From assembly GCA_937898585.1 (NCBI GenBank), contig CALDHR010000228.1, forward strand, positions 1-36,016: a stretch of DNA of 36,016 nucleotides. Reading direction: 5' to 3'. The DNA comes from an uncultured Oligoflexia bacterium. Lineage in GTDB: Bacteria; Bdellovibrionota; Bacteriovoracia; Bacteriovoracales; Bacteriovoracaceae. Position 1 is the first letter of the stretch. Every line of letters starts with the position of its first letter. The notes beneath the pieces are model-generated. The model made no database searches. It was not told the DNA's origin and was given only the letters and a program-made list of their open reading frames with translations. Of this stretch, positions 2,740-11,156 are shown one piece after another. Both the position numbers and the translations under genes were made by a program.

Positions 2740-3676
2740 AAGTTGTCTGAAAGATGAATGGCCTTCTTTTAAGGAAATAATTCCTCTTTCTTTGCAGGCA
2801 TCAGGAAGAGTTTATTTTCGTCTAAGAAAAGAAAATGATGAGAGTATGGTTCTCTGTTTCGATGAGACTCTTTGTGATGAGAAGCATTCTTTTTTACTTC
2901 AAAGCTCTTTTTTTCAGGAACAAGGAGTTTATACTCCCCAGCTACTTAAAATAGATTTTAAAAATCATTTTTACTTACAAGAAGACTTAGGTGATGAGTC
3001 ACTCTTAGTGAAAAGCTTTTTGGCAAAAGATGAAAAAGAGGTAGATGTTTTTTATAAAAATGTCATTGATGAAATGATGAAATGGCAAAAAATAAGAAAG
3101 AAGGGGGGAGAGTTTTCTTTTTCAGAGGAAAAATTTAATGAAGAAATAGAGAAGAGTATTGAGTTTTTTTATCAGAACTTTTTAAAGGTAAAAGACTCCG
3201 GTCATTTAAGAGAAATTAAAAATTTTTTTGCGCCTCTTAATAAAAAATTGAGCAATGAATCAACCTATTATACTCATCGCGATTTTCACTCGCGAAATAT
3301 TTTCTTCAAAGAAGAAAGACCTTATATTATTGATTATCAAGATGCTCGCTTTGGTCCTTTGAGTTATGATTTAGTTTCTCTTTTAGAAGATTCTTATTTT
3401 GATTTAAACAAAGAACAAAAAGAAGATTACAAAAACTACTTTTCTTGCAAAATGCAAATATCTCAAGATGAATTAGATCTCTCTTATAGGGAATGTTTTT
3501 TACAGCGAATTGTAAAAGTTCTAGGAACTTTTTCATTTTTAGGGATGAGAGAAGAGAAGAGATTTTATCTTCAATATATTGCTTTTAATGCAGAGAAATT
3601 GAGGCATTTTTTAAGTAATAAGAAAGAAGACAAGGAGCTTAAAGAGCTCCTGCTAAGGCCTTATTATGGTCTTTGA
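2690..3676 (+). CDS. APH-family sugar kinase, AmgK-like (anomeric MurNAc/GlcNAc kinase candidate)
   Basis: Catalytic/metal-binding motifs THRDFHSRNIFF and PYIIDYQDARFGPLSYDLVSLLEDSYFDL; directly followed by a MurU-like nucleotidyltransferase. Confidence 0.75.
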   Translation: MSEITKKNGILWSEKIKSCLKDEWPSFKEIIPLSLQASGRVYFRLRKENDESMVLCFDETLCDEKHSFLLQSSFFQEQGVYTPQLLKIDFKNHFYLQEDLGDESLLVKSFLAKDEKEVDVFYKNVIDEMMKWQKIRKKGGEFSFSEEKFNEEIEKSIEFFYQNFLKVKDSGHLREIKNFFAPLNKKLSNESTYYTHRDFHSRNIFFKEERPYIIDYQDARFGPLSYDLVSLLEDSYFDLNKEQKEDYKNYFSCKMQISQDELDLSYRECFLQRIVKVLGTFSFLGMREEKRFYLQYIAFNAEKLRHFLSNKKEDKELKELLLRPYYGL

Positions 3677-4595
3677 TTATCTTTTTTTATTGGCAGCGGG
3701 TAAGGCCACAAGAATGAAGGAGATTTGCAAGAAACGGCCTAAGGTTCTTTTGCCTATCTATGATGTTTTGGCCCTTGATCTTTTTTTGCGTTACTACGCT
3801 CCGATGGTGGATAAAAAAATTTTCATCAATACTCATGATTTTCATGAAGAGATAAAAGATGCTTGTGAGAAATCTTCTTACAAAGAAAAAATTGTTTTAC
3901 TAAAAGAGGAGATTCTTTTGGATGTAGGAGGGGCCGTAATGAACCTCAAAAAGCATCTTAAGGATCAAGGAGAAGAAGAAGGCAGGGTTCTCCTTGTTAA
4001 TGCCGATCAGTTTTATTTTTTTGAGGAAGAAAAAAAAGAAGATCATCATGGAGTGGCCCTTTTTTCAACAAAAGTTCCTCGTTCTTTAAAATTTAATGCG
4101 CTTAAAGTTGATGAGAATAATTTTCTTAAAGAAATTATTCCAAGTGATTTGATAAAAGAAAAAGAGCATCTTACTTATACGGGAGTCGCTCTCCTTGATT
4201 TAAGTCACATTGATTATAAAGAAGGTGTAAGTTCTTTTTTCAAAACAGTGGCCAATTATAAAGAAAAAGATGTTTTTATTTTTCCACCTCAAGAGATAAA
4301 GAGCTTTGATTTTGGGACACCTCTTCGCTACTATCAATTTTTGATCCATCTCTTGGAAGCAGAAGAGTCTTATTTTCATGAGGCCATAGATAAGAAGAAG
4401 ATTAATAAAGAGAGACAAAATTATCAGGCGGGAGAAGAAGAAAAAGTTATCAATTTAGGAGGAAATATCATTAAAAATACAAGCAAGGGGTATATTGTGA
4501 CATATTACAGTACTCATCAGGTTGCAGAGAAGGAAGGGTTTTATTTTTTTGATGATTTTGTTGAGGTTTTCCCTTCTCGTGATATAGAATCGTAG
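3666..4595 (+). CDS. Nucleotidyltransferase, MurU-like (MurNAc-1-P uridylyltransferase candidate)
   Basis: N-terminal LFLLAAGKATRMKEICKKRPKVLLPIYD matches the LAAG.g.RM...t...PK.LLP nucleotidyltransferase signature; overlaps the AmgK-like ORF. Confidence 0.72.
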   Translation: MVFDYLFLLAAGKATRMKEICKKRPKVLLPIYDVLALDLFLRYYAPMVDKKIFINTHDFHEEIKDACEKSSYKEKIVLLKEEILLDVGGAVMNLKKHLKDQGEEEGRVLLVNADQFYFFEEEKKEDHHGVALFSTKVPRSLKFNALKVDENNFLKEIIPSDLIKEKEHLTYTGVALLDLSHIDYKEGVSSFFKTVANYKEKDVFIFPPQEIKSFDFGTPLRYYQFLIHLLEAEESYFHEAIDKKKINKERQNYQAGEEEKVINLGGNIIKNTSKGYIVTYYSTHQVAEKEGFYFFDDFVEVFPSRDIES

Positions 4596-4762
4596 GGGCA
4601 GATAAGATAACAGAGATCGCAGGATGTGCAGCGATAGTCATCAATAAAGAGACCATTCTTATCTTCGAGAATAGCACTTTCAGGACAAATAATTTGGCAT
4701 AAATCACAGTTTATACAAGAGGCCGTGATTTTAAATTGATCATTAAAAAAGTTTTCATTCAT
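4541..4762 (-). CDS. 2[4Fe-4S] ferredoxin-like protein
   Basis: Two CxxCxxCxxxCP motifs: CINCDLCQIICP and CTSCDLCYLICP; 73 aa. Confidence 0.88.
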   Translation of the reverse strand: MNENFFNDQFKITASCINCDLCQIICPESAILEDKNGLFIDDYRCTSCDLCYLICPYDSISREGKTSTKSSKK

Positions 4763-4897
4763 CTTTCTAGTGTGAAAGATTTAAGGGAAAATGAAAAAGA
4801 GGAAAAATATGCTGGCCTTGAGACTAATAACCTATCTTTTCTGTTTATTTAATTCCCTAAGTTTTTTTTTTACTTTCTCGTTAAACACTACTTCTCA

Positions 4898-5533
4898 ATG
4901 GTTCCTCTTTTTAGCAAAGTAATTTTTTTCGATTTTCTCAATGAAGAAAAAGTTCTTCTTCTTATTTTTTGCGCTCTTTTTTTGACAACACTTTTAAGAC
5001 AAAAAATATCAAAAATATTTTTTCTCTTCTTTCACGGACTGATAAGTTTTTATTTTCTTTTTGAGTTTTATCAAAAAATGCAAAGTGAGATTTTCATTCT
5101 TTTTTCGGCCGAAATATTTTTTGCTTATCTCTTTGGTTATTTATGGTGGGATTTTTTAGATCGCTCTTATAATTCTTGCAGAGTATCTCTCTTTGACAGA
5201 GAGTTTCGGCCAGAGGTTCCCCTTGAAAGCTATCTTAAATTTAGTAAGAAAAAAGAAGAAAAATCTTTGCGCTCTTTTGTTGTCTCTTGGGATGAAGAAT
5301 CAATTTCACTTCTTGTGCCGGACCTTAGTGAGCATTCTTTTTTTAAAAAGGGACATTGGGATCTTTTTTTTGATGGGCGTCGTTATTCTTATCCCGTGAG
5401 AGTAGTTGACTTTTTTAGAGAGAAAAAGATTATCCACCTTTTGGTAGCAAAAGAAAGGAGAGAAAAAAGAGAAGAGATGAGCTGGGGGGAAATATTTATC
5501 TTATTAGAGAGAAGAGGTTACTTAACCCATTAA
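4898..5533 (+). CDS. Membrane protein of unknown function; N-terminus may begin upstream in another frame
   Basis: Open frame with hydrophobic N-terminal segments and a soluble C-terminal beta-rich region (possibly PilZ-like). No SD before ATG 4898; see finding on the T10 tract. Confidence 0.55.
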   Translation: MVPLFSKVIFFDFLNEEKVLLLIFCALFLTTLLRQKISKIFFLFFHGLISFYFLFEFYQKMQSEIFILFSAEIFFAYLFGYLWWDFLDRSYNSCRVSLFDREFRPEVPLESYLKFSKKKEEKSLRSFVVSWDEESISLLVPDLSEHSFFKKGHWDLFFDGRRYSYPVRVVDFFREKKIIHLLVAKERREKREEMSWGEIFILLERRGYLTH

Positions 5534-5563
5534 GAATTCTTTGTTTATTCCGACAGAAAACTC

Positions 5564-5869
5564 ATGAAGAATGAATATGATAAACTCCTTAAAGAAACCT
5601 ATGACCTATTAGATGAGAAGGGAAAGTTTTTGCTTTGTTTGAAAAAAAACACAAAAAGAGGGGTTTTTATTTCAACATCAGAAAAATTTCCCTACTGCCT
5701 TCCTGTTAACTGTCCTTGGCTGCAAGAGGATTCACTAAAAAAGCTATTATCTGTTTGTAATATCTTAATGAATGAGAGCTTTACTCATATTCAACGCCAG
5801 GATTCTTTTCTTCCCAGTGAGAAGATAATAATCCTTCTTACAAAGAATGGTAGTAATTCTTCATCTTAA
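5564..5869 (+). CDS. Hypothetical protein (101 aa)
   Basis: Open frame, in the same frame as the preceding ORF and separated only by one TAA; no clear SD. Confidence 0.4.
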   Translation: MKNEYDKLLKETYDLLDEKGKFLLCLKKNTKRGVFISTSEKFPYCLPVNCPWLQEDSLKKLLSVCNILMNESFTHIQRQDSFLPSEKIIILLTKNGSNSSS

Positions 5870-6689
5870 GAGCATCAATTTCTAAATTTGGTCCTGCCGA
5901 GATAACATGTCCGCCACAATCTTTATCTTTAAAGGCCCTCATAAGATCGCGCCAGTTAAAATTTGATTCATCGAGGTTCATGTGTTTTAAGTCGCCTTTA
6001 GAGTTAGAGCTAACGCCCGAGAGATGTATGTGCATTTTTTCCAGAGCACTGTGTCCAATCTCTGCTTCAATGCGGTTTAAAATTTCCATAAATTCGCTAT
6101 AGCTATTGCATTCATTGGTGCGTGCATAGAGGTGAGAGAAGTCCAGGCATGGCCAACAGCTGGGAACTGATTTAGCAAGACCTAGAAGTTCATCGAGAGA
6201 GCCAAACTGACTTGTTTTTCCTGTAAGTTCAGGGCGAAGTTCAATATCAATATCAAGACGAGCGAGTCTTTCTTCGATGACATTGAGGCTTTTTTCTACT
6301 AGATCAAAGACATCATAGGGAGAATCTTTCATGTAAAAAGCAGCATGAAATGTCATGGATTCTGCCCCGCACATATCAGAGACTTTTGCCGTTTGAATAA
6401 TTCTCTCTACAGAAGAGTCAATTTTATCTTGTTCACGAGCGTTTAAGTTAATATAGTAGGGTCCATGAGAAGTGAGAGGAATTCCTAATTGGTAGGAGGC
6501 ACGACGAAGCCCAGAACTTGTTTCTTCTTTCATGCGTACACCATGGGAAAACTCCAATTGCATACAATCAAGGCCTAATTGATGGATTCTTTTAACTCCT
6601 TCAATGGGATTGCCTTTTTTAATAGTGCTATTGGGAATACCCGCCGTGCCAAAAAGTAGCTTTGATAAAGTCATGAGTTCCCCTCTCAT
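5838..6689 (-). CDS. Sugar phosphate isomerase/AP endonuclease family TIM barrel (Endonuclease IV-like)
   Basis: MQLEFSHGVRM, TSHGPYYINLNA, MTFHAAFYM, CLDFSHLYAR, MHIHLSGVSS are EndoIV/xylose isomerase-like TIM-barrel metal-site segments. Confidence 0.8.
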   Translation of the reverse strand: MRGELMTLSKLLFGTAGIPNSTIKKGNPIEGVKRIHQLGLDCMQLEFSHGVRMKEETSSGLRRASYQLGIPLTSHGPYYINLNAREQDKIDSSVERIIQTAKVSDMCGAESMTFHAAFYMKDSPYDVFDLVEKSLNVIEERLARLDIDIELRPELTGKTSQFGSLDELLGLAKSVPSCWPCLDFSHLYARTNECNSYSEFMEILNRIEAEIGHSALEKMHIHLSGVSSNSKGDLKHMNLDESNFNWRDLMRAFKDKDCGGHVISAGPNLEIDALKMKNYYHSL

Positions 6690-6794: not shown

Positions 6795-7442
6795 ATGAAT
6801 TCCTCATTTGTAATGATTTTTTTAATTCATGAATTAAAAGTTGTTTTTTGTTTTTTTTTAATATCTTTGAGTGTCATTTATTTGCTGACACCCTATGGGA
6901 CCTCACTTTATCTCTATTGGCGTCTAAAAAGAAAAAAAGTTTTAAAAAATCAGTATCTTCTTTTTGACTGCCAAGTAGAAAGTTTTTGTGCTAAGTGGCA
7001 TTATTCTCCTGTGAATTTTTTTCTTATTCAGGAGAAGAATATTGTTTTAAAGGGATCTTATTTTCTCGTTCCGAGGATTTTTTCTCCTACAGAAGTTTAC
7101 TTAACGGAAGATTTCTTTAATAAAATGACAAAAAAAGAGTTAGAGAGAATTTTTTCTCAAGCAGGGAAGAAAAACTTCTTTATTTCTTTTGCTCTTTTTT
7201 GGCCTAATATTATGATCTGCTATTTTCTTATGTTTACTCGATTTATCTTTTCATTTTTTGATATGAAAAAAAGTTTTTCTTCTTCCATGATAAATTTCGT
7301 TATATTTTTCACCGTTCTTCCTTATTTAATGGTTTTTAATTTTTTAAAAAAAGATAAAAAAGTATATGGTGATATGGTTAAAATGTTTGACTCACATCTT
7401 TCATTAGATATAAAACTTCTTCCTCTTTTTTACCTTCTTTAA
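6795..7442 (+). CDS. Membrane protein, possible degenerate M48/HtpX-like pseudopeptidase
   Basis: Hydrophobic N- and C-terminal segments; central VYLTEDFFNKMTKKELERIFSQAGKK resembles the M48 'i.lt.gLl..l...EleavlaHElgH' region without HExxH. Stop overlaps next ATG. Confidence 0.5.
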   Translation: MNSSFVMIFLIHELKVVFCFFLISLSVIYLLTPYGTSLYLYWRLKRKKVLKNQYLLFDCQVESFCAKWHYSPVNFFLIQEKNIVLKGSYFLVPRIFSPTEVYLTEDFFNKMTKKELERIFSQAGKKNFFISFALFWPNIMICYFLMFTRFIFSFFDMKKSFSSSMINFVIFFTVLPYLMVFNFLKKDKKVYGDMVKMFDSHLSLDIKLLPLFYLL

Positions 7443-9298
7443 TGAAATACTTTATTTTTTTTCTTTTAAATCTTCTTTTTAATAGTGCCATTCTTTTATT
7501 TCCTTTAGATTTTTTTGATGCTGCCATTTATGACTCCTTTTTGCGCTTTAGTTTAAAAGAAAAAGTCTCTAGCAACGTGGTCCTTGTGACTTTTGATGAA
7601 TTTTCTGATGATTTTTTTCAACAACAATATCCCTATCCCTTTGCCGTTTATTACTCTATCTTTAATAAAATTATTGATTTAAATCCTCGCATGATTGCTT
7701 TTTCTTTAGATTTTCCTTTCTTTGAAAAAGAAGATTTTCATTGGAAGGAGAAGTTTAATACTCTTTTTTCTTCTTTTTCACCTTCAAAAAAAAGAATTAT
7801 TCAAGGAGAGAGAATTAATCCATGGGGGGAAGAAAAAAGAGTTTTTCATCTCAATGATTTTCCTCATGGGCCAGATATTATTAATTTTGATCACTATGTT
7901 TATGCAAAAGATGGAGTTCATCGAAGAATTTTGACTCGTTTTAGAAAAAAAGAGTCCTTCCCTTTTTTAGTAGCAAAAAATTTTTTGCCAAGGGAAGAAA
8001 AATTTTTGCCTCATGATTATTACTTTGAAAAAGCAGAGGCCTATTTTTCACTTTATCGTTTTCCCTTTTCTCCTAATCTTGCAGGCCAGAGAAGTATTGA
8101 GAGAATATCTTTGAGAGATCTCTATTCAGGATCTTTGGTTTCACTGGACCTTAAAGATAAAATTATTTTATTGGCCAAAGAGTATGAGACGCATGGAGAG
8201 ACTTTTATTGCGACACCTTTTAGCAAAGATGTCTCTAAGAGAAGTACACGGGCCCTCGTAAAGGCCGCTCAGATAGAAGCTTTAATTAACCACCAAAAAT
8301 ATTTAGTCAAACGGGTTCCAGAAAGAGGAGTTAGGATTTTGGGGCTCTTGTTTTCCCTTTGGCCTTCTTTTGCTATCATGTCATCTCTGCCATTGAACAT
8401 TGTTTTGTTATCGCCTTTTTTAATGACTTTTCTTCTCTTTCTTTCTTCTTATCTCTTGCTTCTTTGGGGAGGTATTTATCTTTCTGCTCTTCCCTTTGTT
8501 CTTATTTTTTTTGTGGGCTTTCTTATTTGGGCCCCGTTGAGAAATTTGCGGGAAAGAGAAGAAAAATTAGTCTATTTGCATGAGTCAAATCTTCTCAGAG
8601 AATTAGATGAGTTTAAGGAAAATTTTCTTTCTCTCATAGGACATGATCTTAAGACGCCTCTGAGCAAAGTCTCATTATCTCTTGATTGCTTAGAGCAGGT
8701 TTTGCCTGCACAAAAAAAAACAATATCCTATTTTCAACAATTAAAATCAGGTGTCAGTGAGCTAGAGCGATTGACAGGACTTTTGATGGATTTTGCCAAA
8801 GTTGAAAAGAAGAGCGTTATTTTAGATCTTCAGTCAGTCGATATGAATGACGTTATTAAAGAGGCCATTAAACAAAGAGAGCAGGAGATGAAGAAAAAAA
8901 ATATTTCTTTAACTCTTTTGCTTGATTCTCTTTACCCCCTTTTGATGGATAAAAAATTAATCATAAGGATTCTTATTAATCTTCTCGATAATGCTATTCG
9001 CTACTCACCTGAAAATTCTTCTGTTGTCATTGAGAGCTATGAGACAAAAGAAGAGTGGGTAAAAGTCTCTATTAAAGACAGCGGGATGGGAGTAGAAAAA
9101 GAAGATTCTGCTTTTCTTTTTCAGAAATTTTACAGGGGAAAGAATGTTCAAAAAAAAGAGACTATGGGGCAAGGATTGGGGCTCTATTTGGCCCATTATT
9201 TTATTTCTTTGCATCAGGGAAAAATTTTTTTAGAGTCAACTTCTATGCAGGGTAGCACTTTTTCTTTTGAGCTTCCCTATAATGGAGAAAATAAATGA
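7442..9298 (+). CDS. CHASE2-domain sensor histidine kinase
   Basis: CHASE2-like N-terminus (FDAAIYDSFLRF...VVLVTFDEFSDD; GETFIATPFSKD...KAAQIEALINHQKYL), TM cluster, H-box LIGHDLKTPLSKVSLSLD, N-box NLLDNAIRYSP, G-boxes DSGMGV and GQGLGLYLAHYF. Confidence 0.9.
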   Translation: MKYFIFFLLNLLFNSAILLFPLDFFDAAIYDSFLRFSLKEKVSSNVVLVTFDEFSDDFFQQQYPYPFAVYYSIFNKIIDLNPRMIAFSLDFPFFEKEDFHWKEKFNTLFSSFSPSKKRIIQGERINPWGEEKRVFHLNDFPHGPDIINFDHYVYAKDGVHRRILTRFRKKESFPFLVAKNFLPREEKFLPHDYYFEKAEAYFSLYRFPFSPNLAGQRSIERISLRDLYSGSLVSLDLKDKIILLAKEYETHGETFIATPFSKDVSKRSTRALVKAAQIEALINHQKYLVKRVPERGVRILGLLFSLWPSFAIMSSLPLNIVLLSPFLMTFLLFLSSYLLLLWGGIYLSALPFVLIFFVGFLIWAPLRNLREREEKLVYLHESNLLRELDEFKENFLSLIGHDLKTPLSKVSLSLDCLEQVLPAQKKTISYFQQLKSGVSELERLTGLLMDFAKVEKKSVILDLQSVDMNDVIKEAIKQREQEMKKKNISLTLLLDSLYPLLMDKKLIIRILINLLDNAIRYSPENSSVVIESYETKEEWVKVSIKDSGMGVEKEDSAFLFQKFYRGKNVQKKETMGQGLGLYLAHYFISLHQGKIFLESTSMQGSTFSFELPYNGENK

Positions 9299-10668: not shown

Positions 10669-11156
10669 ATAATTTATTTAAATCTTTTGTTATTTTGTTA
10701 GTGATTGTGTTGCTAGATCAAGTGACAAAAGCAATGATTCAATCTTCTTTTATTTTAGGTGAAACGAGGAGCATTATTCCTCATTTTTTTAACCTTACTT
10801 ATGTGAAAAATACGGGGGCCGCTTTTGGCATGCTGGCCGATGGGCCCTTGCTTGTTAGGCAAGTTCTCTTTTTATTTTTACCTGTAGTGGCCTGTTTTTA
10901 TTTGGCCTATCTTTTAATAAAAGAGCGAAAAAAAGCGGGCCTTCTTTTTTGGAGTTATTTGCTTATTCTATCAGGGGCCATTGGCAATCTCATTGATCGA
11001 TTTTCGATGGGGTATGTCGTGGATTTCTTAGATTTTTATTGGAAAGATTATCACTTTGCCTCTTTTAATGTGGCCGACAGTGCAATCTCTATTGCTGCCT
11101 TTTTATTGATCTTAGATGCTTTTTTGGGAATGAAAAAAAGTGCACGCTCTTCTTAG
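10665..11156 (+). CDS. lspA: Lipoprotein signal peptidase (signal peptidase II)
   Basis: LDQVTKAMIQ, NLTYVKNTGAAFGML, GAIGNLIDRFSMGYVVDFLDFYW, FNVADSAISIAAFLL. Confidence 0.96.
   Translation: MNNLFKSFVILLVIVLLDQVTKAMIQSSFILGETRSIIPHFFNLTYVKNTGAAFGMLADGPLLVRQVLFLFLPVVACFYLAYLLIKERKKAGLLFWSYLLILSGAIGNLIDRFSMGYVVDFLDFYWKDYHFASFNVADSAISIAAFLLILDAFLGMKKSARSS

Follow-up and report, generated by a model that had tools for sequence, protein, structure and literature searches.

Two open reading frames (ORFs) that meet at a run of ten T residues in the window (the whole stretch of DNA analysed, 36,016 nucleotides of an uncultured member of the Bacteriovoracaceae) are the halves of one gene, split at the T tract. 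On balance we judge it slightly more likely than not that this single gene for a four-helix PilZ-like protein slipped to T10 at a phenylalanine-coding hotspot, that the change is recent or still segregating, and that it is neither a conserved nor a programmed switch. Most simply, the frame break is a chance slip at a slippery spot (or a miscount by the assembly) and not a new genetic switch.

The sequence of the junction agrees with the first-pass annotation, which had described the ten T's and a frame of about 43 codons from ATG 4791 or ATG 4809, followed by an ORF that is open across the tract and has no start or Shine-Dalgarno sequence of its own. ATG 4791 is preceded by AAGGG, ending 3 nt before the start codon, and ATG 4809 by GAGGA, ending 5 nt before it. 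The frame of ATG 4791 stops at TAA 4920-4922, and translation as assembled gives a peptide of 37-43 residues from either start. The ORF at 4898-5533 encodes 211 aa and its frame is open back to 4853; no ATG, GTG or TTG occurs in that frame between 4853 and 4898, and no Shine-Dalgarno sequence was seen before ATG 4898. The two frames overlap over 70 nt (4853-4922) in a -1 relation. By our own arithmetic over 850 kb of the genome, luck would place one of its 20 A/T runs of 10 or more in this overlap with P ~0.0016; the tract and the frame break are therefore linked. The features are collected in Table 1.

Table 1. Features of the split gene and its conserved neighbours, in window positions.
Feature	Position	Strand	Basis
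Nucleotidyltransferase gene, conserved upstream neighbour	3666..4595	+	neighbourhood comparison
4Fe-4S ferredoxin gene, divergent, conserved neighbour	4541..4762	-	neighbourhood comparison
AAGGG, Shine-Dalgarno-like motif before ATG 4791	4783..4787	+	sequence
Frame-0 ORF (43 codons) with the start codon and the beginning of transmembrane helix 1; out of frame past the T tract	4791..4922	+	ORF reading; N-terminal homology
Second frame, open stretch: remainder of helix 1, then helices 2-4 and the PilZ-like domain; ORF listed from ATG 4898	4853..5533	+	ORF reading; fold model
T10 homopolymer, frame-break site, coding the conserved Phe-rich motif of helix 1	4862..4871	+	sequence; orthologue comparison
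PilZ-like beta-barrel domain (predicted), strands E110-E183 of the 4898 ORF model	5225..5446	+	AlphaFold2 model; Foldseek
AP-endonuclease-2-like TIM-barrel gene, conserved downstream neighbour	5838..6689	-	neighbourhood comparison

The evidence for one gene comes from the orthologues. A protein search among 143 relatives returned homologues whose frames stay open for about 245-268 codons, and a family profile search found the orthologue in 118 of 128 other Bacteriovoracaceae genomes (in 3 of the 118 as contig-end pieces only). Read as DNA, 117 loci (85 distinct) are all single ORFs of 233-271 codons. None has an internal stop; five rows were flagged for a stop, and on inspection each stop lay outside the coding part, either upstream of the start or past the natural end. 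The single continuous ORF is thus intact in the relatives and broken at T10 in the window, where the gene nevertheless shows full-length sequence homology to this four-helix PilZ-like orthologue group of the Bacteriovoracaceae. Orthologues starting at the equivalent of ATG 4898, which the first-pass annotation had set against a single gene, were looked for and not found: their starts fall at the column of ATG 4791, about 36 residues earlier. Reading through the tract, done solely for comparison with profiles, gives a window protein of 247 aa, which aligned with 15 homologues (239-264 aa) with no gap at the junction.

The N-terminal part was scored against a profile of 85 orthologues from which the window sequence had been left out. 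The read-through protein reached 98.5 bits (uncorrected score) against 78.4 bits for the 4898 ORF alone, and the other two upstream frames gave 86.6 and 88.6 bits. With the first 36 residues shuffled the mean was 82.6 bits and 98.5 was reached once in 1000 trials; with residues 2-27 shuffled it was reached in none of 1000, the shuffles giving 82.6-85.5. The bias-corrected score gains little from the N-terminus (77.4 vs 76.7), and it is only the uncorrected score that separates the N-terminus from the shuffles; the N-terminal homology is argued from that score with its shuffle control, the ungapped length match and synteny. Since the orthologues do not start at the 4898 equivalent and the N-terminal score stands above the shuffles, the split ORFs are one gene, as the first reading had proposed. 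A stand-alone gene from ATG 4898 has an existing ATG and 211 open codons to its credit, but it lacks a Shine-Dalgarno sequence, would have three helices in place of four with the PilZ-like domain presumably on the opposite side of the membrane, and is ruled out by orthologues that all begin about 36 residues earlier; we regard it as extremely improbable.

The 4898 ORF was modelled with AlphaFold2 from 56 sequences (mean pLDDT 91.4) as membrane helices followed by a six-stranded barrel, and the model of an intact orthologue has one extra helix in front, four in total. Foldseek matched the model to the PilZ domains of Alg44, BcsA, YcgR and MapZ (E 2e-4 to 1e-2). As modelled, the gene product joins a membrane anchor of four helices to a PilZ-like domain. 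At the level of sequence the Pfam search of the window ORFs gave no family match for the 4898 ORF, and a PDB sequence search gave no match; among the orthologues, Pfam PilZ (PF07238) scored above the gathering cut-off in one and weakly, below the cut-off, in about a quarter. The c-di-GMP motifs RxxxR and (D/N)xSxxG were not evident by inspection of the alignment, where the family has LTNWDxxGCF and the window VVSWDEESIS, and because of this the label stops at 'PilZ-like'. With four helices, the N-terminus and the PilZ-like domain would both be cytoplasmic, and the predicted membrane topology would be disturbed without helix 1.

The tract lies at a place where T runs recur. Ten orthologues have eight or nine consecutive T's (T8 or T9) at codons 21-25, within the LSxFFLHI motif of helix 1 and always in frame, which argues that the site is a natural hotspot; the T10 of the window stands at the equivalent place and encodes SFFFYF. 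The relatives have T4-T9 at the site and the longest T run in their first 60 codons is 9, so T10 is unique to the window genome. The T run is thus a by-product of a conserved Phe-rich helix as well as a natural hotspot of slippage and mutation. Replication slippage at this Phe-coding run would be the simplest cause of T10, and with the rest of the ORF intact the change may be recent or still segregating in the population. In the 850 kb of genome, A/T runs of 8 nt number 636, those of 9 nt 114 and those of 10 nt 16, and 4 are longer. Elsewhere in the genome, two adjoining ORFs of 534 and 441 codons hold between them three A/T tracts 10-11 nt long, all in frame (L115, G000:C204, 7911-8665), and an A27 run lies near a contig end, outside long ORFs (L228, G000:C175, 1485-1511). 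Homopolymer frame changes were also sought by codon usage, and the inspected cases were mostly ordinary gene junctions.

It is also possible, although unlikely, that the assembly miscalled the run length through PCR stutter or because mixed lengths were merged into one consensus, and that the gene is intact in the organism as it is in all 118 relatives. The genome is a fragmented draft (323 contigs, 2.25 Mb, 75% complete), and the location of several very long runs (A27, T13, T11) at or near contig ends is a hint that the assembly struggles at homopolymers. Homopolymer errors are not rife in it, however: at least eight further A/T tracts of 10-11 sit in frame within open ORFs, and the nine other genes that could be tested in the first 12 kb are unbroken.

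A fixed break in an early pseudogene, the module being lost in this lineage, is distinctly less probable. The remaining ORF of about 238 codons has no further disabling change, and its fold is still predicted at high confidence. Similarity of the window gene to its orthologues, relative to similarity among the orthologues, gives a ratio of 0.65, and intact neighbours give nearly the same (0.68 for the gene at 1873, 0.65 for the ferredoxin, 0.66 for the gene at 11140 and 0.67 for the response regulator); therefore it is the whole lineage that is fast and not the PilZ-like gene in particular. With an otherwise intact ORF whose divergence is no higher than that of intact neighbours, the break is taken to be recent, segregating or a consensus error. 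On the other side, five of seven near-invariant positions are changed in the window copy (K63, N130, F137, G178 and G180 in 4898 ORF numbering), and the window slot at 5533-5564 lacks a small lipoprotein gene which follows in relatives and is matched in 101 of 124 genomes of the family; together these would fit a longer decay. The lipoprotein loss says little, because genus g14 has no match to the lipoprotein and yet keeps the PilZ-like gene intact.

The neighbourhood is otherwise conserved, in the order nucleotidyltransferase, divergent ferredoxin, PilZ-like gene, AP endonuclease, CHASE2 histidine kinase and response regulator, and the window gene occupies the same slot as the orthologues of its relatives, between ferredoxin and AP endonuclease. 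The next conserved protein (LLEETY) may have a shortened relative here in the 101-aa ORF at 5564-5869. The CHASE2 histidine kinase of the window (7442-9298) stands at 28% in this lineage against 57% among relatives, and is far more diverged than its neighbours.

A selected phase-variation switch, in which fast changes of tract length would turn the membrane PilZ-like protein on and off, is considered very unlikely. The tract does lie at the 5′ end of the gene, as described for homopolymer inactivation (PMC2831843), and a T23 tract was found in a second gene of the genome with the same layout. Against this, the protein is not a predicted surface antigen, nothing in the T4-T9 runs of the relatives points to selection for a long tract, and MutS is present in the genome; a HATPase_c_3 search aimed at MutL was unspecific and was left out of the evidence. 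The T23 run (L111, G000:C80, 542-564) lies at the N-terminal membrane segment of an ORF of 595-628 codons with no Pfam match, and an ATG (MNSSPPKKKGPSLLWR) with a purine-rich stretch upstream is in another frame; it is a candidate for phase variation or else an assembly artefact. The wider proposal, that this lineage switches membrane proteins on and off by means of poly-T runs in their first membrane helix, T10 and this T23 being two of a set of contingency loci, is given very little credence.

Programmed frameshifting or transcriptional slippage, as a conserved device for making two proteins, is hardly credible. Slippage by ribosome or polymerase would be compatible with the -1 relation and with the U UUU UUU heptamer that lies in frame 0, but neither the tract length nor the slippery site and the break are conserved, none of the 118 relatives needs such a device, and the predicted folding of the RNA at the site is no better than that of shuffled sequences (z 0.53), giving no stimulatory structure. 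Among the options which the first-pass annotation had left side by side, a recent slip in tract length or a consensus error at the hotspot is therefore favoured, and programmed or conserved recoding is unsupported.

Slippage may still matter for the product of the slipped gene. In bacterial RNA polymerase the insertion of a single nucleotide is the commonest insertion, at a rate that grows exponentially as the run lengthens, and in Buchnera no transcription error restoring a frame was seen (PMC5574713). The E. coli RNA polymerase slips at 5-10% on T7-T8 (PMC6260861), slippage at the A11 run of tssM1 is about 20% (PMC4256274), and about 30% full-length transcripts are reported for frameshifted endosymbiont genes (PMC3017870). 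By analogy with these cases, slippage of RNA polymerase on U10 would yield a minority of full-length protein, and it is plausible that the allele is a leaky null.

The proper annotation of the locus is a single frameshifted gene and not two ORFs. It offers a worked case in which a recurrent hotspot of T runs arises from a conserved Phe-Phe motif of a membrane helix, and if tract length proves variable in the population it would be, to our knowledge, the first hint of homopolymer phase variation in the Bacteriovoracaceae. A frame break in a conserved gene is in itself a well-known and ordinary kind of event.

By predicted fold, the window protein resembles PilZ-domain proteins such as Alg44 and BcsA (PF07238) in having a six-stranded barrel after membrane helices; it differs from canonical PilZ in that its family is without evident RxxxR and (D/N)xSxxG motifs and its Pfam scores are mostly below the cut-off. 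The frame break itself may be compared with three known systems. In the 5′ poly-A tract of Listeria inlA a change in homopolymer length likewise leads to a short truncated peptide, although there the variation was seen and measured between strains (PMC2831843), whereas the window represents one genome. In Citrobacter rodentium tssM1 the break also falls just past a long A/T run (A11), and slippage of RNA polymerase may rescue the gene; in that system two variants differing in length were demonstrated, both of them needed (PMC4256274), whereas for the T10 of the window rescue is a candidate read from sequence. For the homopolymer frameshifts of Blochmannia and Buchnera, PMC3017870 (citing Tamas et al. 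2008) describes some that are common to several species and shown in transcripts, whereas the window gives a single genome at the level of DNA. The Blochmannia and Buchnera cases are like the window gene in combining a single poly-A/T indel with an otherwise intact gene in an AT-rich bacterium, and in both a full-length product may be possible via transcriptional slippage.
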